From positions 1-51,234 of IMG/VR virus record IMGVR_UViG_3300049048_000105: a stretch of 51,234 bases of DNA, one strand, 5' to 3'. Below the pieces are notes generated by a model that worked only from the letters and a program-made list of their open reading frames with translations, searched no databases and was not told the DNA's origin. Both the position numbers and the translations under genes were made by a program. Each line of letters opens with the position of its first letter. Within the stretch, counting starts at the first letter, position 1. Source of the stretch: a virus. Positions 221 to 25,085 of the stretch are shown here, piece by piece.

Positions 221-1198
221 CTACACAAAGACGGTGTGTTGCCCGGTCGTGATGATCGGCCGGAGCAGGCTGCTGGTCTTCTTCACGGTGTCGATGTAGC
301 GCCAGCTCGCGCCGAGCCGGTCGGGGTGCACGTCGCCCTCGATGGCGAATAGGTACCGCTTGCTCCCCTTGCCCAGGACGCCCGCCGTCGCCTGCATCAG
401 CGTCATCCGCTGGGCTTCGGTGGTCGTGATCACCAGCAGCGTGAAGTCGTTGACGCCGTAACGCTTCATCAGTGCACCACTTCCCATGTAGGCATCGTAG
501 GCGGCAATCTTGTCGGCCCAGGTCTGGGTTGGTCGGGTGCCACGATCCACCTCGATAAACACGCGGCCGCTGATCCGCTCGCCCTTGTCGAAGCCATGGA
601 AGACGCAGGTGGCATCAGGCTGGATGCCGGCCTTCTTCCACAGGAACGTGCCGCCCGATCGCCGCAGGCACGCCTGCACGGTGTCATAGTCTTTGGCCGT
701 CAGGTGTTCGCCCTGCCAGTCCGTGAGCTCAAGGCCCTGGACAGCCTCGAAGCGGCTGCGGATCGCGGCGTAGACCTGGCCAATCATCGCGCCGTGCTCA
801 ACGTTCTGGAACGAGCGCTCGCGCTTGCGGGTGTAGTAGCAGTCCTCAATGAAGGTGCCCTCGTGGTTCTCGGCCAGCAGGCGAGCGCCCAGAGCGGCCA
901 GCATGTAGATGTCCGGGGCGCGGCCAAAGGTGTCGCGCGATCGCTCAATGGGGCGGCGCAGGCGGTACACGATCTCGTGATCGACCAGGTGGCTGAGGCG
1001 GCGGTAGAGGTGGGGTGCGGGGCGGTACGCCTCGGGGGTGCCGGCGGCCTGGGCGGCGGCCCAGCGGTCGCGCCAGGTGGGGAAGTGGAGCCACTCCAGG
1101 GCCTGCGGGGTGATGTAGCGGGCGATGTTGATGGATGCCAGCATCTCGACATCCCGGGGCGTCAGGTAGAACCTCCGTGTTTTGGTTGCAGCAGTCAT
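221..1198 (-). CDS. Replication-relaxation family protein
   Basis: 325 aa. The N terminus has the pattern of the replication-relaxation family (Pfam Replic_Relax): a winged-helix-like start reading LTPRDVEMLASINIARYITPQ, then a region around HLYRRLSHLVDHEIVYRL. The C-terminal half has a nuclease-like core (FIEVDRGT, then KIAAYDAYM) seen in this family. Members are thought to act in DNA relaxation or replication of plasmids and integrative elements and often sit near FtsK/TraB-type translocases. One such translocase is present at 19.8 kb. A GAGG-type ribosome site precedes the ATG. The gene stands alone between a hairpin and the repeat array upstream. Family call good, exact biochemical role unknown. 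Confidence 0.8.
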   Translation of the reverse strand: MTAATKTRRFYLTPRDVEMLASINIARYITPQALEWLHFPTWRDRWAAAQAAGTPEAYRPAPHLYRRLSHLVDHEIVYRLRRPIERSRDTFGRAPDIYMLAALGARLLAENHEGTFIEDCYYTRKRERSFQNVEHGAMIGQVYAAIRSRFEAVQGLELTDWQGEHLTAKDYDTVQACLRRSGGTFLWKKAGIQPDATCVFHGFDKGERISGRVFIEVDRGTRPTQTWADKIAAYDAYMGSGALMKRYGVNDFTLLVITTTEAQRMTLMQATAGVLGKGSKRYLFAIEGDVHPDRLGASWRYIDTVKKTSSLLRPIITTGQHTVFV

Positions 1199-1242: not shown

Positions 1243-2110
1243 CAATTAATATGTCGGGGGTAGAGGATCAGGGGTTTAGGCCTTTGGGCTGCGCTAAAAC
1301 AATGGGTCCGCATGGAGCCTCGTACACCGCCCCGTATGGAGCCTCGTACACCGCCGTTTTCATCTGGTTGTCAGGTTGATAGTGGAGCTGCACGCCTATA
1401 AAGATGTAGGGGGTCTGGAGCAGGTGGTTTGGCACATTGGACTGGGGTAGAGCACGTGGCCTGGATGCGCCCTGGTATGCGTCCTCGCACGCGCCCTGGT
1501 ACACGCCACTTTTCAGATTCAGAAGCGGAAGTATGCTCTTAATTATGTGGGGGGTCTGGGGCAGCCGGTTCAGGGCATTAGGGTGGGTCAAACACATGGT
1601 TCCGGATAGGAACCCGTATGGGAACCTGACATGGGGAACCCGTAAGGGAACATTATCAGGTTGCGGTGGCTGCGCGCCATATTAAAGATGTTTGTGGCGC
1701 AAAGTAAACCGTCCTAAAGGGATGAAGCGGCTGTTTTGAGGCATCAGTAAAGGTGCGGTGAAGTGTACGCTGAAGGTGCAGTAACGTGTATGCTGAAGGT
1801 GCGGTAAAGGTGCGCGGCATATTAAAGATGTGCGGCGTGCGGTTCAGGGCTATAGGGTGGGGCAGATCGGCGGTTCTGAGGGCACACAGAATTACAACAG
1901 GATAACAACAGGATTGCAACAAAATCTCAGCAGGATTACAACAGGATTGCAGAGCGGTGGCTGCGCGGCTCCTTAAAGATGTGCGGCGATGGGTTCAGAG
2001 CATTGGGGCCAGCGAGATCCTCGGTTTGAGGTGATCACTGAATTGCCACAACCATTCCAGTGCCTTGCCGCTACCTTGCCACGATCTTGCCACGACCTTT
2101 TGCATTTATG
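1243..2110. repeat. Six-unit nested repeat array, period 140-153 bp
   Basis: Six diverged units have a shared motif (TTAAAGATGT and variants) starting near 1245, 1398, 1539, 1682, 1822 and 1973. In most units this is followed by GGTTCAGGGCATTAGGGTGG-like sequence, and several end in GGTGGCTGCGCGGC. Between the shared blocks, each unit carries its own unrelated short tandem repeat: a 20-base element at 1312 and 1336; an 11-base element at 1467 and 1491; GGAACCCGTA at 1609 and 1635; AAGGTGC at 1750, 1773 and 1796; CAACAGGAT at 1895, 1906, 1928 and 1939 with a degenerate copy at 1917; CTTGCC at 2064, 2075 and 2086. Inner periods are thus 11 or 23-26 bp. No supported gene lies here. The open frames have no ribosome sites. 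Confidence 0.8.
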
Positions 2111-5710: not shown

Positions 5711-5749
5711 CCGCAGGTCTAGCGGCCACCAGAGCGGCTAGACCTGCGG
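5711..5749 (-). terminator. Hairpin between ASCH-like gene and exonuclease
   Basis: The 13-base arms CCGCAGGTCTAGC and GCTAGACCTGCGG are perfectly complementary. The stem lies downstream of the minus-strand gene ending at 5825, and an A/T-rich stretch follows on the minus strand. It is probably a terminator or partial attenuator in the minus operon. Next to it, 5757-5797 contains two copies of TCTCCCTGATTTCTC. Confidence 0.6.
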
Positions 5750-5824
5750 ACCGGTCTCCCTGATTTCTCTGCCAATTCTCCCTGATTTCTCGCCGATTTC
5801 GCACGTCTATTCCCGGCCCAATTC

Positions 5825-6607
5825 CTACGCTGATTCTATAGCCGACAGTGCTGTCAGGCTGACAGTGCTATCGGCCTCATCGGCGCTGACGGCGCTGACG
5901 GCGGCCAGGCTGTCAGCGCCGTCAGCGTGCCGGCGAAAGTCGAGCACCCAGACCCACGGGTTGCTTGCCCAGGGTGCCCGTTCAACATTGATCGTGTCCC
6001 ACAAGGAGGCAAACGAATCACGGGGCGTATAACACGGAAAGCCATCAGCATTGAGCGGGTTATAGTTGCGCCACTCGTCGGCATACTCGGGCGGGCAATC
6101 ACCGCCAATCCAATTCTTGTCTATCCCCTCGGCTATAGCATCGGCGTCGCTGATGTCCTGAAGCCGCTCCACCCGGAGCTTCAGGAAGTTCAGGTCGATG
6201 CGGCTGGCCCACCTCGGCAGGTGGATGGATGGCCGCCACACCATGTTCGGGGTGGCATAGCGGCCGGCATTTGGATGCGTGGTACGGCGCATCTCCGGCG
6301 AGCCAGGATCAGCCTTATAGTCCAGGAAGTAGTCCGTCCCGCGGCGCTCTACCCGCCACGCCTCCCGAATCCACAGGCGCCCGCCAGGCTTACCATAGCG
6401 GCAGGTAACGCGGGTCAGGCAGCCGGTGGTTCGGTGGCACGCCAGTGGCCAGCCATCGTCATCAAAGTCGCCCTCGAAGGGGAAGTAGTAGCGCTGGTAC
6501 TGGGCATCCTCAAACAGGCGTCGGGTCTGCGTCTTCAAATCAGCCAGGACCTTGCGCACCATGGCGCCGGTAAATGATAGCGGCCGCTCTACAACATCTG
6601 TAGTCAT
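5825..6607 (-). CDS. ASCH-like conserved phage protein
   Basis: 260 aa from ATG 6607 (AGGAG 7 bases upstream). It has the pattern of a widespread phage protein family related to ASCH domains: PLSFTGAMVRKVLADLKTQTRR near the N terminus, GGRLWIREAW, VWRPSIHLPRWASRI, VERLQDISDADAIAEGI and ERAPWASNPWVWVLDFRR. ASCH domains are predicted to bind RNA or nucleotides. The last 30 residues are Ser/Ala/Asp-rich, encoded by repeated GCTGACGG-type DNA. Function unproven. Confidence 0.75.
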   Translation of the reverse strand: MTTDVVERPLSFTGAMVRKVLADLKTQTRRLFEDAQYQRYYFPFEGDFDDDGWPLACHRTTGCLTRVTCRYGKPGGRLWIREAWRVERRGTDYFLDYKADPGSPEMRRTTHPNAGRYATPNMVWRPSIHLPRWASRIDLNFLKLRVERLQDISDADAIAEGIDKNWIGGDCPPEYADEWRNYNPLNADGFPCYTPRDSFASLWDTINVERAPWASNPWVWVLDFRRHADGADSLAAVSAVSADEADSTVSLTALSAIESA

Positions 6608-6705: not shown

Positions 6706-6885
6706 ATGAAGAATCGCATCATTGGTCGGCTCTTAGGCATCGGAATTTGTCTATCTCTATTCGCAGGCGTTTTTGAACTCGGCACCCCATCGCGGGACTA
6801 TCCCGCTGCGCATGATGAAGTTCCTACGCCAACACCTACGCTTGCTATCGAACTACCGCAACCAGTCATGCAAATTCGGCGCTAA
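6706..6885 (+). CDS. Small secreted or membrane-anchored peptide
   Basis: 59 aa. The start is fixed by a strong AAGGAGG 6 bases upstream of ATG 6706. A positive N terminus (MKNRIIGR) and a hydrophobic core (LLGIGICLSLFAGVF) make a signal peptide or anchor. A Pro-Thr linker (EVPTPTPTLAIELP) follows. It is the only plus-strand gene in a minus-strand region and is bounded downstream by a strong hairpin, so it may be a lysogenically expressed moron. Function unknown. Confidence 0.65.
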   Translation: MKNRIIGRLLGIGICLSLFAGVFELGTPSRDYPAAHDEVPTPTPTLAIELPQPVMQIRR

Positions 6886-6924
6886 TGTGGCGCGAATCTG
6901 GCGCTAGTCCGGTGCAAAGGCGTA

Positions 6925-6978: not shown

Positions 6979-7899
6979 TTACTCTCCTGTGTTGACTTCC
7001 ACCCGGACGTTGGCTGCAATGAACCCAACCTGGGCTTTAAACGCCGGCGACTCGATGAACATCGCCGCAGCGCTGCGTACTGCATCCAGATCCATGTGCG
7101 GGATAGCCTCAAAGCCCTGGCCGAAGATTTGTTCCTGCAAGGCTTCCACTCGAACCGTGCCCAGCCGCAGCAGTTGCCGGGCGAACTCCACCACCGCCGA
7201 GGCGTAGGCGAACCCCTGCGTATCGATCGCGGGCGCGGCCGCCACCGGCGGAGCAGCGTCGATGATCAGCTGCTGGATGCCACCGGCTCCGCCGGGCGTG
7301 GCCACGGCCAGGTCCTGGGGGGCATCATCGGCCTGGCCAGTGAAGGCGGCGACAGGCACAACGCTCTGCCCAATGATCAGGAGCGGCGGGATCTCGCCGA
7401 TGCTCTGCACGGGGGCCGGGCGGCTCGGCAGCGGCGCTGGGGTGGGCAGCCGTACATTCGTCGTGCTGGCGGGCTTTGGCGGCGGCGCCGGCTTGTGCTT
7501 CTGCACGATGGCTTTGGCCTGAGAGCCGGTCACCTTGACGCCCTGCTCGACCAGCGCCATAGCCTCATCTCGTGCAGCCGGCGGCGTAGAGGGTGATGAC
7601 AGCGCGTACATGGCCGATGCCGCCAGAAATTCCGAAACGTTCGGATTATCCCCAAACTCGCGGGCGGCGCGCATGTAGTTGCCCGCTGTATCTTCGGACC
7701 AGCGGAACTCAGACTTAATCCACTGCAAAAATCCTCCGTGCGGCAACCTCTCCTTCACCTCCATCAGGACCTTCCCGACCTCAATCACCGCCCGGCCCAT
7801 AAACCCACGGATCTCGCTGGTCTTCTGCTCCACGAGCGTCCGGGTATCGGTGTCCAGCGCATCGTAAGAAAACTCCGCGATCATCATCTGCTCGGTCAT
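6979..7899 (-). CDS. DUF3102 domain protein
   Basis: 306 aa. The N-terminal half has the DUF3102 pattern (IEVGKVLMEVKERLPHGGFLQWIKSEFRWSEDTAGNYMRAA), found in phage and plasmid proteins. A Pro-rich linker spans about residues 135-175, and a helical C-terminal domain follows. Its start overlaps the ThiF gene stop by 4 bases, so the two are translationally coupled. It closes the PRTRC-type operon where a ParB-related gene might be expected. A DNA-partition or regulatory role is only an inference. Confidence 0.75.
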   Translation of the reverse strand: MTEQMMIAEFSYDALDTDTRTLVEQKTSEIRGFMGRAVIEVGKVLMEVKERLPHGGFLQWIKSEFRWSEDTAGNYMRAAREFGDNPNVSEFLAASAMYALSSPSTPPAARDEAMALVEQGVKVTGSQAKAIVQKHKPAPPPKPASTTNVRLPTPAPLPSRPAPVQSIGEIPPLLIIGQSVVPVAAFTGQADDAPQDLAVATPGGAGGIQQLIIDAAPPVAAAPAIDTQGFAYASAVVEFARQLLRLGTVRVEALQEQIFGQGFEAIPHMDLDAVRSAAAMFIESPAFKAQVGFIAANVRVEVNTGE

Positions 7900-8771
7900 G
7901 CTGCTGCCTTCCTTTCAACTGGCTGGGTCAATTCTTCCACCGTCATCTTCGCGGCCTTGGCGACGTTGGCCGCCGTGATGGTCGTCGAGCGCATCGAAAA
8001 TGCGCCCAGGTCGATCTCCGTCTCGAACGTGGTGAGCCGGCGCTGGATAACAATCTGCGTGAGGTACTGGCCCACGATGGTGGCCACCTGCTCGTTGATC
8101 ATCAGGCTCTGGCGGTTATCCTCCATGGCCGCTGCGCAGTCCTGGCGTGGCTGCTCGGCCTGCGTTCGAATCAGCCGCGGGTACACCAACGCCGGCGATG
8201 GCAGGCCGGAACAGAAGCCGCCCAGCGCGAACGCGCCGCGCAGGTCCTTGCGATTGGCCTTGGTCCCAAGCACCACCTGGCCGGCGTGCTCATGATTACC
8301 GGCATCAATCCACATGTCGTAGTGCCACGAGTGGAGCGCATCGGCCATAGCACTCCGGCCGGCCGGGCCATCCACCGCGCCGACGAGGATGTGATAGGAG
8401 TCATCACGACGCATCCGGTTGCGGATCGGCGTCGCCTGGCCGGTCAGCAGCTCGGCGGTGGCCATGACCGGCAGCGCCTCCATCTGAAGCCCAAAGGCGG
8501 CATTGAACCGGGCCACCAACGTGGCGGCCTTGTTGCGGCCCACCTCAGCATGGCTGAACAGCTGCCTGCCAACGTTCTTGTGTTCGACAACATCAGCGTC
8601 CAGCACCAGCGCGCTGATCGGTGGCCCACCGGTGGCGCGACAGTGGGCCATCAGCCTGGCCAGGCTCTGCACGACATAGCTGCCCGTGCCACCAGCGCCC
8701 ACAACGGTTATAAAGAATGCCTGTGCGCCAATGCCAAACGGCACGGCCGGATCAATAGTCAGTGTCTGCAT
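7896..8771 (-). CDS. PRTRC system ThiF/E1-like protein
   Basis: 291 aa. A Rossmann E1-like fold is shown by VVGAGGTGSYV (residues 23-32, ATP loop), VLDADVVEHKNVGRQLF (the conserved Asp plus the Asn-Arg-Gln motif) and VGRNKAATLV. A candidate catalytic Cys lies in GGFCSGLPSPA. By homology with E1 enzymes it should adenylate the C terminus of a ubiquitin-like partner, here most likely protein C at 11303-11512. It overlaps the JAMM gene by 20 bases and the DUF3102 gene by 4, so it is part of a tight operon. Confidence 0.88.
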   Translation of the reverse strand: MQTLTIDPAVPFGIGAQAFFITVVGAGGTGSYVVQSLARLMAHCRATGGPPISALVLDADVVEHKNVGRQLFSHAEVGRNKAATLVARFNAAFGLQMEALPVMATAELLTGQATPIRNRMRRDDSYHILVGAVDGPAGRSAMADALHSWHYDMWIDAGNHEHAGQVVLGTKANRKDLRGAFALGGFCSGLPSPALVYPRLIRTQAEQPRQDCAAAMEDNRQSLMINEQVATIVGQYLTQIVIQRRLTTFETEIDLGAFSMRSTTITAANVAKAAKMTVEELTQPVERKAAA

Positions 8772-9420
8772 ACTGCACTCCTGCTACATCCTGGAACGGC
8801 CCCAGGCTATCGAAGATCATCAGCGCCGGGATTACCTGGTGATGGCCGTAGACATTGAGCCGGCACATGATCTCCGGCCGGGCCGAGTGGATACGGCCGA
8901 TGACGACGGAGACGCTCAGGCCAGTGTCGTCCGCGTCGTCCGTGCTGCTGAAGAACGCCGGCATGCCGTGATGGGAATGGATGTCCACGAGCACATCAAC
9001 GCCGACGGGAACCTCGTAGTGGACGCGGGCCGCCGTCGCCAGTTGGCGGCCGGCCGGGCGTAGCACGAGGCGCTGGTCCGCAGGGTTGAATAAGACGAAA
9101 TATTGCTTCTCGATCGGCCGGGCAATGCCGCCGATGGTGTGCGCCGCCTGCTGGGCATCTTGGAGCAGCGGCGTCAGCCACACGCCCGGTATGCGCTGCG
9201 GCCAGGCAAACCAGCGGATGCTTGGTAGCAGACTGGCCAGGCCTGGCACAGCACAATCGCTCGTTCCGACCTGTACCACCAGCTCCAGCACCTGGTTGGC
9301 GCCGCGCTTGAACACGCCGTTCTGCGCCCAGAGCCAGGCCACGCCGCTGCCGGTCGGCCTGGGGGCGGTCGGCGTCGCGACGTGGTAGGACAGCAGCCCG
9401 GCCAGCGTGGGAATGTTCAT
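8752..9420 (-). CDS. PRTRC system protein A, JAMM/JAB protease-like
   Basis: 222 aa. The C-terminal half holds a complete JAMM signature HxHx7SxxD: His148, His150, Ser158, Asp161, with a candidate Glu136 (VHYEVP). JAMM proteins are zinc deubiquitinase-like proteases. In PRTRC cassettes protein A accompanies ThiF and an E2-like protein. It probably trims the ubiquitin-like protein or removes it from targets. The N-terminal 110 residues are a separate domain without a clear motif. It overlaps both neighbours. Confidence 0.85.
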   Translation of the reverse strand: MNIPTLAGLLSYHVATPTAPRPTGSGVAWLWAQNGVFKRGANQVLELVVQVGTSDCAVPGLASLLPSIRWFAWPQRIPGVWLTPLLQDAQQAAHTIGGIARPIEKQYFVLFNPADQRLVLRPAGRQLATAARVHYEVPVGVDVLVDIHSHHGMPAFFSSTDDADDTGLSVSVVIGRIHSARPEIMCRLNVYGHHQVIPALMIFDSLGPFQDVAGVQYADTDY

Positions 9421-10124
9421 AGCTGGCCTCGCAGCACCGATGCAAACGATGTGGGGTGGGGCACCAGGTCATCAAGCGGGTACTCGGTCGCTCCCTGCTC
9501 ATTGAGCCGCGACAGCATGCCTAGGACATTACTGGTGGCCAGCTGGCTCTTCCCAGCGGCCGCGTGCGGGCTAAAGCGGCTCCCCGTCAGGAAAAGGTCA
9601 AGGGTCTTCATCAGCGTGGCCGGCGCCGCCGGCGCCCGGCCGTCGCTGCTCCCCCAGCAAATACTGGCGTTGGGAAACACATTGGGGAAGGGTGCGTTGT
9701 AGAGGATCGTCTCTTCGCTGGCGGGAAACTCGTGGCTGGCCAGCGCCCAGATATGAAAGGATTCAATACAGCCCGACCAGACCAGCGGGGGGGTAGGGAT
9801 CGTCCAGATCTGGAGGCGGGAACCGTGCTCAACCTGGATGCGGATGGTCCGCGCCGGCACGTAGACGACGTAAAACGGCCGGCCGTTGCGCAGGCCGGTG
9901 GCCAGTGTGTTCGGCGGCAGGAGTCCAGAGGACGCCGGCAGCTTGCCGAGCACGCTAGCCAGGGCCGCAGGGTTGATCGGGTAGGATGTCCAGCGGCCGA
10001 ACTTGCGCCGGGTGACGACAACGCAGTTCTCGTAGAAGTCGAGCTGGAGCCGCGGCGGCGTGGCCAGTTCGACCTCACGCTGGTACGGCCTGGCGCCGCG
10101 TTTAGACAAGGGTGTTTTCACCAT
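9417..10124 (-). CDS. PRTRC system protein B, E2-like
   Basis: 235 aa. Residues 144-157 (APFPNVFPNASICW) match the active-site segment of ubiquitin-conjugating enzymes (HPNV-x-GxICL pattern), placing the catalytic cysteine at Cys156. The His of canonical E2s is absent, as in the prokaryotic E2-like family D to which PRTRC protein B belongs. It should receive the ubiquitin-like protein from the ThiF partner. The gene overlaps the JAMM gene by 4 bases (ATGA). Confidence 0.83.
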   Translation of the reverse strand: MVKTPLSKRGARPYQREVELATPPRLQLDFYENCVVVTRRKFGRWTSYPINPAALASVLGKLPASSGLLPPNTLATGLRNGRPFYVVYVPARTIRIQVEHGSRLQIWTIPTPPLVWSGCIESFHIWALASHEFPASEETILYNAPFPNVFPNASICWGSSDGRAPAAPATLMKTLDLFLTGSRFSPHAAAGKSQLATSNVLGMLSRLNEQGATEYPLDDLVPHPTSFASVLRGQL

Positions 10125-14334: not shown

Positions 14335-14415
14335 AGCCTTGTCCTCCTTGGTATGGGTTGTGGGTTCGAAACGTTGATTGTGCTTATCTTGGCGGACGGC
14401 CAATCAACTGAGGGG

Positions 14416-14445
14416 AGTATAACATGGGGATAACTTAGATGTCAA
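14416..14445 (-). promoter_or_regulatory. Early promoter, minus strand
   Basis: On the minus strand TTGACA (14440-14445) and TATACT (14416-14421) are separated by 18 bases. It is correctly placed to drive the gene starting at 14334 and the early operon behind it. Confidence 0.7.
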
Positions 14446-14449
14446 CTAT

Positions 14450-14515
14450 AATATGCATATTAAAATATGCAGATTATTATTGACATTCTACGACTGATCA
14501 GTATAATATGCATTA
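14450..14515. promoter_or_regulatory. Repeated operators of the regulatory switch
   Basis: AATATGCATATT (14450-14461, perfect palindrome), a partial AATATGC at 14464-14470 and ATAATATGCATTA (14503-14515) lie between and over the divergent promoters. The last copy overlaps the plus -10 box. They are the natural binding sites for the adjacent XRE regulator. Confidence 0.65.
14480..14507 (+). promoter_or_regulatory. Promoter of the XRE regulator
   Basis: TTGACA (14480-14485), a 16-base spacer and TATAAT (14502-14507) match both consensus boxes fully. The -10 box overlaps an ATGCAT operator, so autoregulation is likely. Confidence 0.8.
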
Positions 14516-14535
14516 AATATCCCAGGGAGGTAAAC

Positions 14536-14775
14536 GTGCCTAAATATCGCATTCGCGAAATAGCCGAGGAAAAAGGTTGGAACATGACACGGCTTGCACG
14601 TGAGGCCAACATTGAAAGGGCTACCATCACTCCACTATGGAAGGGTGAGGATGCCAACCCGCGTATGTCCACACTGGAAGCAATCGCACGCAAATTAGAT
14701 GTTGAGGTTGGGGATCTTCTTGGTGAGGGACTAGCGGGAAAAATCGAAGACGGCCTAGCGAGGACTAGTCGCTAG
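14536..14775 (+). CDS. XRE/Cro-CI family transcriptional regulator
   Basis: 79 aa, GTG start at 14536 with GGAGG at 14526-14530. A single helix-turn-helix domain of the Cro/CI type fills most of it (IREIAEEKGWNMTRLAREANIERATITPLWKGE, then TLEAIARKLDVEVGDLL). It has no cleavage or dimerisation domain of the LexA/CI kind. Divergent promoters and ATGCAT operators beside it suggest it is the switch regulator controlling the early operons. Confidence 0.85.
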   Translation: MPKYRIREIAEEKGWNMTRLAREANIERATITPLWKGEDANPRMSTLEAIARKLDVEVGDLLGEGLAGKIEDGLARTSR

Positions 14776-15564: not shown

Positions 15565-15576
15565 AATGAGGCGCGA

Positions 15577-15681
15577 CATGCATTAAACATGCATTGCGTT
15601 TGGTACCATCAATGGAACGATCATTTAGCGATCATTTAGGTAGCGTACACGAAACATGCATTTCGCGTGCATTTCGACCCG
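15577..15681. repeat. ATGCATT and CGATCATTTAG repeats
   Basis: ACATGCATT at 15577 and 15588, AACATGCATT near 15653 and GTGCATTTCG near 15667 flank two tandem copies of CGATCATTTAG (15618-15628 and 15629-15639). The ATGCAT core matches the operators near 14450 and 14505. The whole 15445-15897 stretch has no gene and looks regulatory or origin-like. Confidence 0.6.
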
Positions 15682-16371: not shown

Positions 16372-16977
16372 ATGGACAGCCAGCCGGAAACTAATGAGGA
16401 TCAATTCGCTTTTGATCCTGCATTCCTCGAAAGCCGAAATATTACCTGGGATGCAAAGGGCATGTTGATCTACCTTGTTAGCAAGCAAGGAGAACCTACA
16501 TCGCTTCAAGAACTCATTGATGCTTCACCTGCGGGCCGGGATAAGGTTCTGAATCTTCTCGGTCAACTTGAAACTGCCGGATATATTCGAAAAGTTCGAG
16601 ACACTGTCGAGGGGCGGTTTCAACCCACACGGTACATCATCAATTTCAGGCCAGAATATTCAGCCTATACCCAATATGTCTACCTCATTACGGATGGTCA
16701 ATTACAAAAAATTGGCATGAGCCGTACACCAAAGGCCCGTATTCGGGCCATCGAATTTCAAGCAAAGGTTCCCATCACGACACTGCACATCATCGCCGCC
16801 GAAAACATGTCGGAGCTGGAAGAATGTCTGCACCTCAAGTTCGCTCGAAGACGAATATCTGGGGAGTGGTTCGCGCTCGATCCGGATGATGTGGCGTGGG
16901 TTCAATCTCTATCCAACGTAAGTATCGACGACTGCGCAGCCATTCGCGCCTCGCTCGACTTGGAAGCGGAGGGCTAA
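16372..16977 (+). CDS. Winged-helix plus GIY-YIG (T5orf172/Mug113-like) protein
   Basis: 201 aa from ATG 16372 (GAGGAG upstream). Residues 15-85 look like a winged helix (SLQELIDASPAGRDKVLNLLGQLETAGYIRKV). Residues 100-185 have the GIY-YIG-type pattern of the T5orf172/Mug113 group (YVYLITDGQLQKIGMSR, LEECLHLKFARRRISGEWFAL). Such domains may nick DNA or have lost activity. It is AT-richer than its neighbours and lies 4 bases before the initiator gene. Confidence 0.75.
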   Translation: MDSQPETNEDQFAFDPAFLESRNITWDAKGMLIYLVSKQGEPTSLQELIDASPAGRDKVLNLLGQLETAGYIRKVRDTVEGRFQPTRYIINFRPEYSAYTQYVYLITDGQLQKIGMSRTPKARIRAIEFQAKVPITTLHIIAAENMSELEECLHLKFARRRISGEWFALDPDDVAWVQSLSNVSIDDCAAIRASLDLEAEG

Positions 16978-16981
16978 GGCT

Positions 16982-18118
16982 ATGGCAGCATATACAGCAA
17001 CACCTACCGTCATGGCCTTCAAGGACATGGCCTTCCACGGCAATGTCGTGCCTATGACGTGGTACCACCATCTCACGCTGGAGGATGGCAAACCAAACCT
17101 TCCGGCCATTATCATCCTCTCGGACATTGTGTACTGGTATCGGCCCGTTGAAATCCGCGATGAAGCCACCGGCATGGTGGTCGGATATCGCGCGAAGTTC
17201 AAAGCCGACCAGCTGCAACGCAACTACGATCAGTTCGCCGAGCAGTTCGGATTTACAAAGCGCCAAGCGAAGGATGCTATCAATTACCTGATCAGCCGAG
17301 GCCTCATTACCCGCGAATTCCGCACCGTTCCTGGGCCAGGCGGCTCACTCTTAGGGAACGTGATGTTTGTCCAACCCCTGCCAGAAGCCATCCAGAAGAT
17401 CAACCAACTGGCCCCTCGGCACCCACTTTATCGAGCTGGAGAGGACCAGCACCCCTCTGACGTTATAACGCCGGAGGGGTCTGAGGATGCCCCCCCCTAT
17501 GACGATATACCGCCAGAGGGGGATCATCCTACCGATCCCCCTATGACGTTTAAACGTCAGACATTAACAGAGAGTACAACAGAGACTCCTACACAGAATT
17601 CTGTTAATGATCCATCCATGCATCCCGGAGGCGATCGCGAGAACGAGAAGCCGAACGGGGATGGATGGATGGATGGATCATTTCGTAATTGGGAAGAGCT
17701 TTGTGGAACGGAGCAGGGACGGTTCCTCTATGAAGCCGGAGTTCGATCCCTTTCCGCTGCTCGTGAATTGATTCACATTCCATTAGAGGTGATGCAGGCG
17801 GAGTGGGAGCGGGTACAGGTGGGGACCGCCAGGGACAAGGCGGCGACGCTGATCCTGAACCTGCGCGGCCTGCCACCGCTGCCGGCGGCCGCGCCAGCGG
17901 AACCGGCCTACGCCCCGGCAGCGGATCAACGGCGACCAGACTGGGTGCCGCTATACGCCTGGGCCGAGATGCAGGAGAGGATTCGCGACATGCTCACTGG
18001 CGCACGACTGGTTGATGGGCAGATTGTCGCCACTCACCCGATCATGACGGAGATGCTTCGTGCCCCACAAAACGCCCTCTACTTTGAATTTTTGACTAAT
18101 CAAGAGGTGGCAGCATGA
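16982..18118 (+). CDS. Phage replication initiator, winged-helix (O/DnaD-like)
   Basis: 378 aa. The N terminus (about residues 10-130) fits a replication-initiator winged helix: WYHHLTLEDGKPNLPAIIILSDIVYWY and EQFGFTKRQAKDAINYLISRGLI. Residues 150-240 are a disordered, acidic and Thr/Pro-rich linker whose DNA carries three iterons. The C terminus may contact the helicase loader. Lambda O has the same plan, with its origin in its own gene. The stop overlaps the loader start by 4 bases (ATGA). Confidence 0.8.
   Translation: MAAYTATPTVMAFKDMAFHGNVVPMTWYHHLTLEDGKPNLPAIIILSDIVYWYRPVEIRDEATGMVVGYRAKFKADQLQRNYDQFAEQFGFTKRQAKDAINYLISRGLITREFRTVPGPGGSLLGNVMFVQPLPEAIQKINQLAPRHPLYRAGEDQHPSDVITPEGSEDAPPYDDIPPEGDHPTDPPMTFKRQTLTESTTETPTQNSVNDPSMHPGGDRENEKPNGDGWMDGSFRNWEELCGTEQGRFLYEAGVRSLSAARELIHIPLEVMQAEWERVQVGTARDKAATLILNLRGLPPLPAAAPAEPAYAPAADQRRPDWVPLYAWAEMQERIRDMLTGARLVDGQIVATHPIMTEMLRAPQNALYFEFLTNQEVAA
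17452..17565. other. Putative replication origin: iterons inside the initiator gene
   Basis: Three 28-base related elements begin at 17452, 17494 and 17538 (spacing 42 and 44). All start CCCCTNTGACG. The first two end GAGGGG and are near-palindromic with CCCCT and GAGGGG ends; the third has the central palindrome ACGTTTAAACGT but lacks the right end. A weaker copy starts at 17413. An AT-richer segment with ACAGAATTCTGT follows at 17594. This is the layout of a lambda-type origin. Confidence 0.75.
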
Positions 18119-19152: not shown

Positions 19153-19749
19153 ATGGAACATCAAGAAGAAAAAGATCTCCAGTCCCAGCTGATCCTCGGC
19201 ACCTCGGGTGCAGGAGCCGGCGCGGCCGCCGCGACGCTCCCTGCCGAATCACCCAAACCCGAGCGCGTCCAGCGCCGCACAGCGCCAGCCTCACGCCTCG
19301 AAAAGCAGATCGACAAAGCGATGAACGCCCTGGCCTACCTCGGCATCATCGGAATCGCGGTCCTGCTCTGGTGGTGGGGTGCCGGCTTTACGGTGAACTT
19401 TCTGGCAGGCTTGAGCACCTCGATCAAGACCTGGGGCTGGCCAGCCTGGGGCATTCCAGTTCTGGTCACGATGATCGAACTCAAGCTCTGGCGTCATATG
19501 ACCAACCCGTTGTCGCCCGCCGGCGCCGCCGTGCTCGTGGTGCTGCTGTTCGACATTGGCACGTCGTTTGCCGGCTTCACCCAGTGGGCCGCCGGCCGGA
19601 CCCTGCCGCTGTTTACTGGCATCACCTTCCCGTCGGCTGGCTGGCCGCTGTGGATCGTCGGCATCGGTTTGGGCGTCGTTTTTGCCTTTCTCCCGGAGCG
19701 ACTTTCCCGCTGGGCATTGGCTGAGTTGGCCGCGCTGCGGAAGAAATAG
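19153..19749 (+). CDS. Membrane protein coupled to the DNA translocase
   Basis: 198 aa. A soluble, Ala/Pro-rich N terminus (about 55 residues) is followed by four hydrophobic segments (LAYLGIIGIAVLLWWWG; WGIPVLVTMIELKLW; AGAAVLVVLLFDIGTSFAG; WPLWIVGIGLGVVFAFL). It is placed 8 bases before the FtsK-like gene, so it may anchor the translocase in the membrane, as in conjugative elements. No known family is recognised. Confidence 0.75.
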   Translation: MEHQEEKDLQSQLILGTSGAGAGAAAATLPAESPKPERVQRRTAPASRLEKQIDKAMNALAYLGIIGIAVLLWWWGAGFTVNFLAGLSTSIKTWGWPAWGIPVLVTMIELKLWRHMTNPLSPAGAAVLVVLLFDIGTSFAGFTQWAAGRTLPLFTGITFPSAGWPLWIVGIGLGVVFAFLPERLSRWALAELAALRKK

Positions 19750-19757
19750 GAGACGCT

Positions 19758-21290
19758 ATGGACACTGGTATGCAGATACTCCTCTTGCTGGTAGCGGTCG
19801 GCCTGGTCGGCCTGCTGAAGGGCAAAAAGATCATCGGCGAGTACCGCGCCTTCACCGCCTGGCGTCGGGGCGAGTATGCCGCAGCCCTTGCTGGTGGGCC
19901 AGTGTCCTCAGCCCCCCCTTCCGAGTCATCAACCCCGTCGGCGCCACCCGCTGTGATTGATACCCGCACCCTGTCGGGCGCCGGAACCGCACTCCTCAAT
20001 CCGCCGGCGGACCTCCGCACCGCCCTGGACTTTATCAAGGCGCGGGCGTCCAAACCCTTTCCGTTTCCGCTGGGCTGGCGCCTGACCTCAGGGGGCAAGC
20101 CTGACTGCGTGTACGCCTCGCTAGTGGGCGATGTCAACCACATCGCCCTGACGGGCTTCACCGACTCGGGCAAGGACTCCTGGGCCGCCCAGGCGCTGCT
20201 GTCGATGGCCCTCACGAACACCCCGGACACGCTCCAGCTGGCCATCATTGATGGCAAGGGCGGCCTGTCGTGGATTGGCTGGGAGAACAAGGCCCACGTC
20301 TGGCTGATGGCCGAGCAGCCCGAGGATATGCGCCCCGCGATGGACCGGCTCAAAGCCGAGCGCGAACGCCGGCAGCAGATCCTCAAGGCGGCCCGCTGCG
20401 AGAAGTGGGAAGAGTACAACGCCGGCGATATGCCGCTCATGGTCGTCTTTGTCAGCGAGCTGATGCTGCTCCAGGATGCCACCAGCAAGACCGAGCTGGC
20501 CGACTGGCTCAACACCGAGCTGACGTCAGCTCGGGCGGCCGGCATTCGCTACATCGTGTCTGGCCAGACGTTCACCCGCCTGGATACCCGCTGGCGATCG
20601 CAGATCGGCCTCTACATTGCGGGCTACCAACCCCGCGGCGACGCGGACGAGCCAAACACGTCGTTTACGACTAAGGAGCTGCGCGAGCTGGGGTCCAACG
20701 CCGACGGCGCTGCGTTCGGTGTGCCGCCCTCGGCGCTCCCGGTGCCGCCGGCGGGATCGGGTGTGTTCACCTGCGTCCAGGGCCGCACGGTCCTCACGGT
20801 CCGGGCCTCGTACCTGAACAAAGAGCATCGGCTGGCGCTGCTCAATACGCTGCCCAATCGGGCTGTGGCGGCCGTCGCGCCAGCCCGCCCAGTGCGCTCC
20901 GCAGCGGACATGGATGTTCTTCAAAACCTTCTTCAGACCGGCCAGGCGCTGCCCATCGAGGAAGAACGTTCGTCAGGGCGTGAAGAACGTTCTTCTTCCC
21001 TTCAGAGTGCGATAAAAGAACATTCGGAAGAACCTTCTTCACCGGGAAGAACTTTGGTCGAGTCACGCTCAAAAACGGGATCGTCGGTGGTCTTTGTAGA
21101 ACTCCCGTTGCCGGAGGATGAGGTGCCGTTCGAGGAGCAGCGCCGCATCATTGAGACTGCGCCGCGAGCAAGAAATCGCCGCGCGCTCACGATCGATCTC
21201 TACGGGACTGATGGTGGGAAAAAGGCTGGCTGGGTCAAGAAGGTGTGTGATGCCCTCGGGCTGTTGCCGCCTCAGGGGGTGGCGCAGTAG
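19758..21290 (+). CDS. FtsK/SpoIIIE-like DNA translocase
   Basis: 510 aa. One N-terminal hydrophobic segment (MQILLLLVAVGLVGLL), then a FtsK-type motor: Walker A GFTDSGKDS (about residue 135), LAIIDGKGG, and Walker B PLMVVFVSEL. A charged, Ser/Glu-rich tail (residues 395-440) is encoded by GAAGAAC/GTTCTTC repeats, with a last domain of about 60 residues. It would pump double-stranded DNA, in transfer or segregation of the element. Such a gene is unusual for a siphovirus and fits the replication-relaxation gene at 0.2 kb. Confidence 0.83.
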   Translation: MDTGMQILLLLVAVGLVGLLKGKKIIGEYRAFTAWRRGEYAAALAGGPVSSAPPSESSTPSAPPAVIDTRTLSGAGTALLNPPADLRTALDFIKARASKPFPFPLGWRLTSGGKPDCVYASLVGDVNHIALTGFTDSGKDSWAAQALLSMALTNTPDTLQLAIIDGKGGLSWIGWENKAHVWLMAEQPEDMRPAMDRLKAERERRQQILKAARCEKWEEYNAGDMPLMVVFVSELMLLQDATSKTELADWLNTELTSARAAGIRYIVSGQTFTRLDTRWRSQIGLYIAGYQPRGDADEPNTSFTTKELRELGSNADGAAFGVPPSALPVPPAGSGVFTCVQGRTVLTVRASYLNKEHRLALLNTLPNRAVAAVAPARPVRSAADMDVLQNLLQTGQALPIEEERSSGREERSSSLQSAIKEHSEEPSSPGRTLVESRSKTGSSVVFVELPLPEDEVPFEEQRRIIETAPRARNRRALTIDLYGTDGGKKAGWVKKVCDALGLLPPQGVAQ

Positions 21291-21654: not shown

Positions 21655-22626
21655 ATGGACGTATTTGAGACCTATGCCCAACGAAAGAAACGAACAGAGC
21701 AGGCTGGTCAGCCCGATGTTTATGAGTATGATGAGATTCCACAAACCTTCCGACAGCAGGTACTGACGATTTGCGACTCCTGTATAGGTCCCTACCAATT
21801 ACGTAGAGTCCATGGTAATCATCTCATTAACCCATCCTCCCATCCTATCTGGACAATTATCCATGATGGATTTGCAGATGCTATAGGATTCGATTCACTG
21901 AGTCATAGTCACAAAAATCCTTATGAGAAGTGTGTTGATTACCTTAAGTCGAATGACACTGACACTGACAATGTTCTTGGTTTAATCGAGGCAATATTTA
22001 TTGTCCTTCTTAATGTTGAAGATGATGAAGATCTCGCACAGCAATATCCATTGCAAGGTTCTGCTTCCAAGGCCGTTGAACTTCTCAACTTTCGTTTTAA
22101 GCAGAACAATCTTGGATATCAATTAGTCAGTGGGAAGATTATTCGTCTAGACTCAGAATACATTCACTCCGAAATCGTCAAGAATGCCTTGCAATTACTT
22201 CGTGGATCGTCTTTCGCTGGCGCATCACAGGAGTTCTGGAAGGCCCACTCACACTACACGCAAGAGAATTATAAAGAAGCCCTTGTCGAAGCGCACAAAG
22301 CGTTTGAGAGCACGATGAAAACCATCTGTGATCTTCGGGGTTGGGGCTATGTCGATCCAAGTAGGCCAAATCTATCTCCCTCAGCAAAACCCTTGGTAGA
22401 TACTATGATTCGGGAAAAGCTGATTCCCGAATTTCTATCAACCCATCTCAAGGGGTTAGCAAATGTTTTAGTCGAGGGTGCGCCACTTCTTCGCAATATA
22501 CTCGCTGGACATGGCCAGGGTGCAGTTGTGGTCGAGGTTCCTGCCTACTTTGCCGCCTATGCCCTTCATCTCACGGCATCCAATATCGTGTTTCTTGTTG
22601 AGGCACATAAGGTGAAGCCGCTTTAG
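21655..22626 (+). CDS. STM4504/CBY_0614 family protein with Abi-type HEPN C terminus
   Basis: 323 aa. The N terminus (MDVFETYAQRKKR, DVYEYDEIPQTFRQQV) has the pattern of the STM4504/CBY_0614 family. The C terminus matches abortive-infection HEPN domains: YKEALVEAHKAFESTMKTIC, then RNILAGHGQG with the Arg...His RNase motif, and YALHLTASNIVFLVE. HEPN proteins of this kind are toxic ribonucleases in phage defence. AT-rich composition marks it as cargo, perhaps for superinfection exclusion. The role is inferred. Confidence 0.75.
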   Translation: MDVFETYAQRKKRTEQAGQPDVYEYDEIPQTFRQQVLTICDSCIGPYQLRRVHGNHLINPSSHPIWTIIHDGFADAIGFDSLSHSHKNPYEKCVDYLKSNDTDTDNVLGLIEAIFIVLLNVEDDEDLAQQYPLQGSASKAVELLNFRFKQNNLGYQLVSGKIIRLDSEYIHSEIVKNALQLLRGSSFAGASQEFWKAHSHYTQENYKEALVEAHKAFESTMKTICDLRGWGYVDPSRPNLSPSAKPLVDTMIREKLIPEFLSTHLKGLANVLVEGAPLLRNILAGHGQGAVVVEVPAYFAAYALHLTASNIVFLVEAHKVKPL

Positions 22627-23450: not shown

Positions 23451-25085
23451 ATGCCTCAGCCCATCACTGGCAATACCCTCTACTATGGCGACAACCTCAT
23501 CATCCTGCGCGACTATATTCCCAGCGAAAGCGTCGATCTCGTCTACCTCGACCCACCCTTCAACTCCAACCGGAACTACAATGTGCTGTTCAAGGATGAA
23601 GGTGGCAAGGAGAGTGAGTCCCAGATCGTTGCCTTTGAGGATACCTGGCACTGGAACCGCGTAGCTGAGGATACTTATACTGACCTCATAACAAACGCAG
23701 CTCCGGCCGTCAGCGACATGATTGGCGCGCTCCGTGGCTTTGTCGGTACCAACCAGATGATGGCTTATTTGGTGATGATGGCGGCCCGCCTGGTCGAGCT
23801 GCACCGCGTGTTGAAGCCAACGGGAAGTCTCTATCTGCACTGCGATCCAACGGCAAGCCATTACCTCAAAATCATTTTGGACACCATTTTTGGAGTAAGT
23901 GCTTTTCGGAATGAGATCATCTGGAAGCGGACAAGTAACCATAGTGATGCGAACCGCTATGGTGCTGTTCATGATGTCATCTTCTTTTACTCAAAATCGT
24001 CTCAATGGGTATGGAATAAACAGTACATGCCTCGGGATGACTCTGCCTTGAAAACACATGACCTTGCCCGTGATCCTGATGGACGGATATATCGTCTCGA
24101 TAATATGTCAGCTGCCGGTCAAGGCCCAGCGCGTACCTTTGGTGACAAGCAGCTTGAACCGCCTATAGGAAATCACTGGCGTTTTTCACAAGAAAATATT
24201 GATCGGTTTTTGCAAGAAGGCCGCATCGTATTTACTAAAAACGGAAAACCACGATACAAGCGGTATTTGGATGAATCGCCAGGCTTCGCTGTCCAAGATA
24301 CTTGGACCGATATTCAACCTATAAATTCAGGTGCTCGTGAAACATTAGGCTATCCAACTCAAAAACCACTGTCATTATTGGAGCGCATCATTCAATCCAG
24401 TAGCAACCCTGGCGACATCGTGCTCGATCCCTTCTGTGGATGTGGGACAACGATCGCCGCAGCCCAGAAGCTCGGCCGAACATGGGTTGGCATTGATATA
24501 ACCCACCTCTCGATTGCGCTCCAAAAGTATCGGCTCCAGGAGATGTTTCCCGGCATCTCGTTCAAGGTCGTGGGCGAACCAAAGGACATTGGCGCAGCCC
24601 ACCAGCTCGCCAGCGAGGACCGCTACCAGTTTCAGTGGTGGGCCTTATCGCTGATCAAGGCACGGCCGCTCGGCGGTGACAGCGGCAGCAAGCAGGGCAA
24701 AAAGGGCAGTGACAAGGGAATCGACGGCGTGATTACCTTCATCGACGACGCGACGAATAAGCCCAAGAAGGTCCTGGTGCAGGTGAAGTCTGGCAAGGTC
24801 AAGAGCGGAGATATCCGCGACCTGGTTGGCACGCTCCAGCGTGAGGGCGGCGCGATCGGCGTCTTCATCAGCCTTGAACCAGCCTCGAAAGATATGACCA
24901 CCGAAGCCGTGAGTGCCGGCTACTATGACTCACCTGGCTGGGGCAAGAAGTACCCTCGGGTGCAGATTCTCACCATTGAGGCGCTCCTGCGTGGTGCCGA
25001 GGTGCAGATGCCGCCGGCCTATGGCACGTTCAAGCAGGCCCAGCGGGCATCCACCGATACTGATCAAATAGGCTTCGATGTCTAG
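23451..25085 (+). CDS. DNA methyltransferase fused to Mrr-like nuclease domain
   Basis: 544 aa. A beta-class order of motifs: [13 protein letters not shown] (motif IV, about residue 26) comes before [13 protein letters not shown] and WVGIDIT (motif I, about residue 320). The last 150 residues contain [11 protein letters not shown] and VLVQVKSG, the Asp...Gln-x-Lys core of Mrr/PD-(D/E)xK nucleases. So modification and possible cleavage are on one chain. It may protect the element or restrict rivals. It lies between two copies of a palindrome-terminator module. Confidence 0.88.

Follow-up and report, generated by a model that had tools for sequence, protein, structure and literature searches.

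The window, by which we mean the whole 51,234-base virus record from IMG/VR analysed here, carries at 1243-2112 an array of six head-to-tail units of 140-153 bp each, in which a shared block is combined with short direct repeats of the unit's own. The explanation that we favour, and to which we give about an even chance of being correct, is that the array consists of six cis-sites in tandem (oriT-like modules) for a MOBC-type PF13814 relaxase, with the direct repeats as its binding sites. The array had been proposed from the sequence to be an iteron-like binding array or a transfer origin, and this is the reading with the best support at present, because PF13814 is the MOBC relaxase family, because MOBC repeats lie 70-120 bp from nic and because a box with private repeats recurs in the Herpetosiphon plasmid pHAU01. 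An iteron replication origin calls for identical iterons together with an AT-rich unwinding region and a Rep initiator, and the repeats here differ between units, whose GC content is 49-57%.

Head and tail genes are found at about 27-50 kb of the record, while its left part holds an integrase, an FtsK/SpoIIIE protein, defence-like genes and the PF13814 (Replic_Relax) gene. The array occupies the divergent intergenic gap between the start codon of the latter (1198) and the start of a trypsin-like gene (about 2151). Features of the record outside the array are:

148-188, no strand: perfect inverted repeat of 18 bp with a 5-nt loop, past the 3' end of the Replic_Relax gene and without a T-run
221-1198, minus strand: Replic_Relax protein of 325 aa (PF13814, Pfam E=2e-21), gene start 45 bp from the array
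2151-2921, divergent from the Replic_Relax gene across the array: trypsin-like protease gene (phrog_7688)
7896-10124: bacterial ubiquitin-like cassette, here carried by a virus record, of consecutive ThiF (E1-like), Prok-JAB and Prok-E2_D genes
19153-21290: pair of a membrane protein and an FtsK/SpoIIIE ATPase, matched best among plasmids by the same two genes on Herpetosiphon pHAU01 and pHAU02
21655-22626: AbiJ_NTD4, a defence-like gene
23451-25085: defence-like gene for a fusion of a methylase with an Mrr-like nuclease domain

The inverted repeat at 148-188 is a possible terminator or a possible part of a transfer or replication site, and the FtsK/SpoIIIE protein a possible transfer ATPase; none of the window proteins scanned was identified as a T4SS component. 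The GC content of the trypsin-like gene is far below that of the adjacent genes. Because the Replic_Relax and FtsK-pair proteins find their best matches in the plasmid collection on Herpetosiphon plasmids, the host is probably a member of the Chloroflexota, or the carrier of the array a Chloroflexota virus or mobile element.

The six units, all on the plus strand, are laid out as follows (DR, direct repeats):

1243-1395: unit 1 (U1), 153 bp; degenerate box; DR 1308-1355, 12-bp repeats CCGCATGGAGCC TCGTACACCGCC, twice
1396-1536: unit 2 (U2), 141 bp; box at about 1387-1410; DR 1460-1507, four CTGGTATGCGTC-like 12-bp repeats
1537-1678: unit 3 (U3), 142 bp; degenerate box; DR at about 1598-1657, GGAACCCGTATG-like 12/13-bp repeats
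1679-1818: unit 4 (U4), 140 bp; box 1664-1691; DR 1750-1809, AAGGTGCGGTA-like 11/12-bp repeats
1819-1969: unit 5 (U5), 151 bp; box 1811-1836; DR 1886-1951, 11-bp repeat ACAGGATTACA, six times
1970-2112: unit 6 (U6), 143 bp; box 1955-1987; DR at about 2041-2099, 11-bp repeat CCTTGCCACGA, five times

A six-unit array with a shared block is what the sequence-only reading had described, and the alignments between neighbours bear it out, standing far above shuffled controls over whole units (U1/U2 z=15, U1/U3 z=11, U2/U3 z=10, U5/U6 z=17) and over the blocks (U4/U5 z=7.7, U4/U6 z=7.5). Chance alignment of the blocks, which that reading had named as its own counter-hypothesis, does not account for them, as shuffled sequences fail to reproduce them. 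The common block is indeed present in all six units but is not uniform across the array: the units fall into two subfamilies (U1-U3 and U4-U6), most of GGTTCAGGGCATTAGGG is gone from U4, and U1 and U3 keep the left half of the block only in degenerate form. On the plus strand the blocks are rich in G, with a GC skew of +0.36 to +0.57 in units 1-5, and the GC content of the units is 49-57%. A G-rich run in unit 3 (1549-1587) has a possible G-quadruplex pattern. No inverted repeats of at least 12 nt were found in 1150-2250.

Each of the six units possesses its own inner direct repeat (p=0.000 each; 1000 dinucleotide shuffles, 24-bp window), which starts 61-71 bp after TTAAAG or a variant of it and covers about +61 to +128 from this box in 6/6 units. 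Set out in register, the periods are 24=12+12 in U1, 12 in U2, 12+13/14 in U3, an alternation of 11+12 in U4, and 11 in both U5 and U6. Of the periods reported earlier, 11 bp is real, whereas those of 23-26 bp are doubled 11-13 bp periods. That the inner repeat is private to every unit was confirmed, with the reservation that the inner sequences are partly related: U1 can still be aligned with U2 and U3 (z 3.9 and 5.6), and U5 with U6 (z 5.2). Because neighbours inside a subfamily still align in this way, the inner repeats within a subfamily appear to descend from common arrays which diverged unit by unit. The argument that tandem duplication would have kept the inner sequence consequently fails, since short repeats can re-homogenise in each unit and neighbours retain residual similarity. 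Duplication with slippage per unit would explain how the form was kept and the sequence changed without any special diversifying machine, and a dedicated "diversifying element" is not supported.

The array is non-coding and unstructured. Its open frames gave no Pfam or NCBIfam match, tblastn of the plus frame against plasmids gave none either, and codon scores were negative in all array frames, though the same test fails on the foreign-looking trypsin gene too. Single units, folded as RNA from either strand, came out near shuffles (z -2.2 to +1.6), no consensus RNA structure forms across units, Rfam has no match to the array, and scans for sigma-70-like promoters and for terminators stayed at chance level.

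The protein encoded next to the array matches, besides PF13814, the family phrog_9381, "replication initiation by nicking" (E=8e-13), and its sole match in the plasmid collection is Haur_5233 of Herpetosiphon aurantiacus pHAU02 (40% identity). PF13814 Replic_Relax is equated with the MobC relaxase superfamily in a survey of streptococcal mobilisable elements (Table 1 in PMC5357655), and the "replication-relaxation family protein" of pAM373, a plasmid classed as MOBC in PLSDB, matches PF13814 as well. By this family membership, the 221-1198 protein is a candidate member of the MOBC relaxase family; "replication relaxation" as a separate function is not supported. Among the PD-(D/E)xK-like residues in an alignment of four proteins, E216 is invariant, D195 and D218 are kept in only part of them, and K230 is common to the three Chloroflexota proteins and not aligned in pAM373, so the catalytic lysine of the 221-1198 protein is not clearly placed. 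A single-sequence structure model of this protein reached a pLDDT of 35, which is too low for a reading of the fold. On pHAU01 and pHAU02, MOB-suite called no relaxase and gave no mobilisable typing.

The units share a conserved box, of which the best copy is CGGTGGCTGCGCGGC-nn-TTAAAGATGTGCGGC at 1955-1987 on the plus strand; its quality is best in U6, U4 and U5, fair in U2 and poor in U1 and U3. A search of both Herpetosiphon plasmids (pHAU01, pHAU02) yielded one short match of note, at pHAU01 156288-156319 on the minus strand, with 30 matches in 34 alignment columns between the pHAU01 box of about 30 bp and that of the window. It lies within a 222-bp gap of the H. aurantiacus plasmid (156146-156367) upstream of Haur_5116, which is itself a PF13814 protein (E=4e-10). 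Read on the minus strand, the gap contains CGGTGGCTGCGCGGCTGTTAAAGAGTGTCGGC followed by the 11-bp repeat GGTTCGGACAA (×3), 68 bp past TTAAAG. The locus thus resembles the array in its box, in its offset (68 bp vs 61-71), in its private 11-bp repeat and in an orientation of box and repeats to the PF13814 gene that is identical in both elements, and differs from it in being a single unit, in its repeat sequence and in lacking the GGTTCAGGGC block. When pHAU01 and pHAU02 were cut into 3,950 overlapping 222-bp segments, the alignment score was reached by 1/3950 and the repeat strength by 7/3950, and only the segment upstream of Haur_5116 reached both. The reverse probe, with the pHAU01 box against the whole 51-kb window, proved just as specific, returning U6, U4 and U5 as its top three (46, 38 and 32; next 28). 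Because a 45-bp box query against the whole plasmid collection gives E=8, which is not significant alone, the case for homology draws on box, position and repeat together; with one other locus known, it is genomic context that carries the argument.

No comparable 11-bp array is present on pHAU02 near Haur_5233. Two further arrays were observed on pHAU01. The one at 152719-153000 is nested, a 52-bp higher-order repeat made of 11-bp CCATCGCACAG units, and sits in the gap between divergent genes, with VirB4-like and PF13814 genes no more than about 4 kb away. The other (16740-17066) consists of 11-bp direct and inverted repeats, AACGACAATAA, between Haur_5009 (weakly ParM/MreB-like) and the small gene Haur_5010, and is a candidate centromere. 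Intergenic degenerate 11-bp arrays or pairs of unrelated sequence (e.g. TCTCCCTGATT, ATTCGGCGCTA, CGATCATTTAG) also occur in the window itself at 5745-5840, 6868-6922 and 15566-15675, none of them with the box upstream. Among viral contigs, the DNA patterns TTAAAGATGTGCGGC, TTAAAGATGT-gap-GGTTYAGRGC, GGTTYAGGGCNNTRGGGTGGG and GGCTGCGCGSC-gap-TTAAAGA matched singly and at scattered places or not at all, and relatives of the Replic_Relax and FtsK proteins were not found there; one pattern scan of genome contigs gave 11 scattered, unrelated matches, 0 from Chloroflexota. PF13814 and the array are both absent from seven terminase-related viruses. A related 53-kb virus record carries more than 20 heptamer satellites, recalling those of Chloroflexus aurantiacus. 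A match to a Peribacillus plasmid (GGGGAACCCGTAG array) was set aside, as it looks like convergent low-complexity similarity.

Among known transfer origins, those of MOBC plasmids are the closest comparison. TraX of pAD1, the MOBC prototype, has a winged HTH at its N-terminus, and the five direct repeats to which it binds lie ~70-120 bp from nic (PMC12857230). In pAM373, five tandem 12-bp direct repeats (14552-14629) lie upstream of the PF13814 gene, with perfect inverted repeats of 25 and 18 bp beside them (14392-14533); the direct repeats are the plasmid's only 10-14 bp tandem array at threshold, one further 9-bp site lying within a gene. The array shares with both plasmids a nearby gene for a PF13814-family relaxase, here directly adjacent, and short tandem direct repeats, here of 11-13 bp. 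Its spacing would match as well, though only with the box taken as the core, the repeats lying at about +61 to +128 against 70-120 bp from nic in pAD1. Unlike them, it has six modules with different repeats instead of one, its carrier is probably a Chloroflexota virus or mobile element, and the large inverted repeat of pAM373 is absent from it, the only strong pair in the region being the one at 148-188, beyond the gene as seen from the array. CloDF13 was dropped as a second MOBC yardstick, its record being without an annotated MobC relaxase. A constant core with diverged specificity repeats is likewise seen in the oriT subtypes of the pWBG749 family: a single staphylococcal plasmid may carry 2-3 oriT mimics, which usually belong to different subtypes, have the same core and differing specificity repeats and serve mobilisation by different conjugative plasmids (PMC8136818). 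That system differs from the array in its relaxase family, in a specificity that works via SmpO and IR2, and in having no tandem 11-mers, and a head-to-tail array of six is not described there (PMC8136818).

On the oriT-like reading, the conserved core box CGGTGGCTGCGCGGC..TTAAAGATGTGCGGC of each unit would probably be the nick or core region, and the unit's own 11-13 bp direct repeats, 61-71 bp downstream, the binding site of the relaxase. A winged-helix part of the protein would align on the helically phased repeats and thereby set the nuclease domain on the core box, where a nick would initiate transfer or a mobilisation of rolling-circle-like kind; the divergent relaxase promoter may in addition be autoregulated by this binding. 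Tandem duplication could have produced the six copies, with unequal exchange as the mechanism or, possibly, recombination between cores mediated by the relaxase, after which the direct repeats would have drifted and been re-homogenised per unit by slippage or recombination, so that form and spacing stay while the sequence changes. Binding, nicking, transfer and the set of units that would work are here deduced from protein family and geometry. The box, as noted, is degenerate in U1 and U3, its homology comes from one other locus, and one protein reading six different 11-mers is not expected, all of which count against this reading. So do the missing inverted repeat, the catalytic lysine that is not clearly placed, the lack of a MOB-suite relaxase call on either Herpetosiphon plasmid, and the negative result for T4SS genes in the window proteins scanned.

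The array might instead be a neutral or weakly selected satellite, i.e. a duplicated intergenic segment in a repeat-prone lineage without a function of its own, which we hold to be rather unlikely. Chloroflexus aurantiacus tops a table of bacterial satellites with 76 of them (PMC6749651), further intergenic 11-bp arrays, unrelated in sequence, occur in the window, and the similarity left between neighbouring inner arrays agrees with duplication and slippage; drift alone, on the other hand, predicts no recurrence of box, offset and repeat form upstream of a Herpetosiphon PF13814 gene, and the terminase-related phages show no enrichment of 11-bp periods. An unlikely variant of the transfer-origin reading would have six oriT modules with one nick core and differing binding repeats, usable by several MOBC relaxases. 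Relaxases from co-resident elements may then mobilise the carrier, with the array as a library of oriT mimics whose units might have been gained through relaxase-mediated recombination at the common core. The apparent descent of the repeats from one another inside each subfamily speaks against it, and no partner elements with a matching repeat for any unit were found among the collections searched.

A partition (centromere-like) or maintenance site, with a ribbon-helix-helix or similar protein on the phased direct repeats, is quite unlikely in our view, even though the 11-12 bp pitch is that of R1 parC, where ParR requires two 11-bp repeats (PMC9426499), and of the R388 stbDRs bound by StbA, 9-bp repeats with 2-bp gaps within a promoter (PMC3098194), and even though the array at pHAU01 16740-17066 stands beside a weakly ParM-like gene. 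Direct repeats at this pitch around a promoter are what the array has in common with both; centromere repeats, however, are of one sequence per element and come without a shared core box, whereas the repeats here differ in every unit and, in two elements, the core box accompanies PF13814 genes. Among the proteins tested, ParM, ParA, ParR and StbA were not found adjoining the array, whose neighbours are the Replic_Relax and trypsin-like genes. Improbable, too, is a purely regulatory region without transfer function, consisting of promoters and operators of the two divergent genes with a regulator bound head-to-tail on the direct repeats. The divergent position would suit it, as would the distance of the box from the relaxase start codon (about 45-65 bp in the window and pHAU01 alike) and the 11-bp direct repeats upstream of other genes in both, but six copies over 870 bp far exceed the need for operators, a single regulator would require a common repeat sequence, and the sigma-70-like promoters are no better than chance. 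A decayed, tandemly duplicated coding gene is very improbable: U1 and U3 are open from a shared ATG in the same frame and encode repeat peptides, and a short in-frame reading from an ATG is common to U1, U3, U5 and U6, but there are stops in U2 and U4 and early stops in U5 and U6, and the 11-bp repeats break the frame. The family match which the sequence-only reading had named as evidence for such a gene did not appear, and the tblastn and codon results given above point the same way, the latter under the reservation made there.

No conjugation origin described for Chloroflexota was found in the literature searched. To our knowledge, the only known cases of several oriT specificities per molecule are staphylococcal plasmids with two or three mimics. 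Were the oriT-like reading true, the array would represent six natural variants of one MOBC site on one molecule, from which binding and nicking assays could derive the rule that connects direct repeats with relaxase specificity. The box with private 11-mer repeats upstream of PF13814 genes is suggested as a search rule for transfer origins in Chloroflexota, relevant where, as on the two Herpetosiphon plasmids examined, MOB-suite calls no relaxase. The array would then show the specificity of a transfer origin evolving by duplication and re-homogenisation of its repeats.
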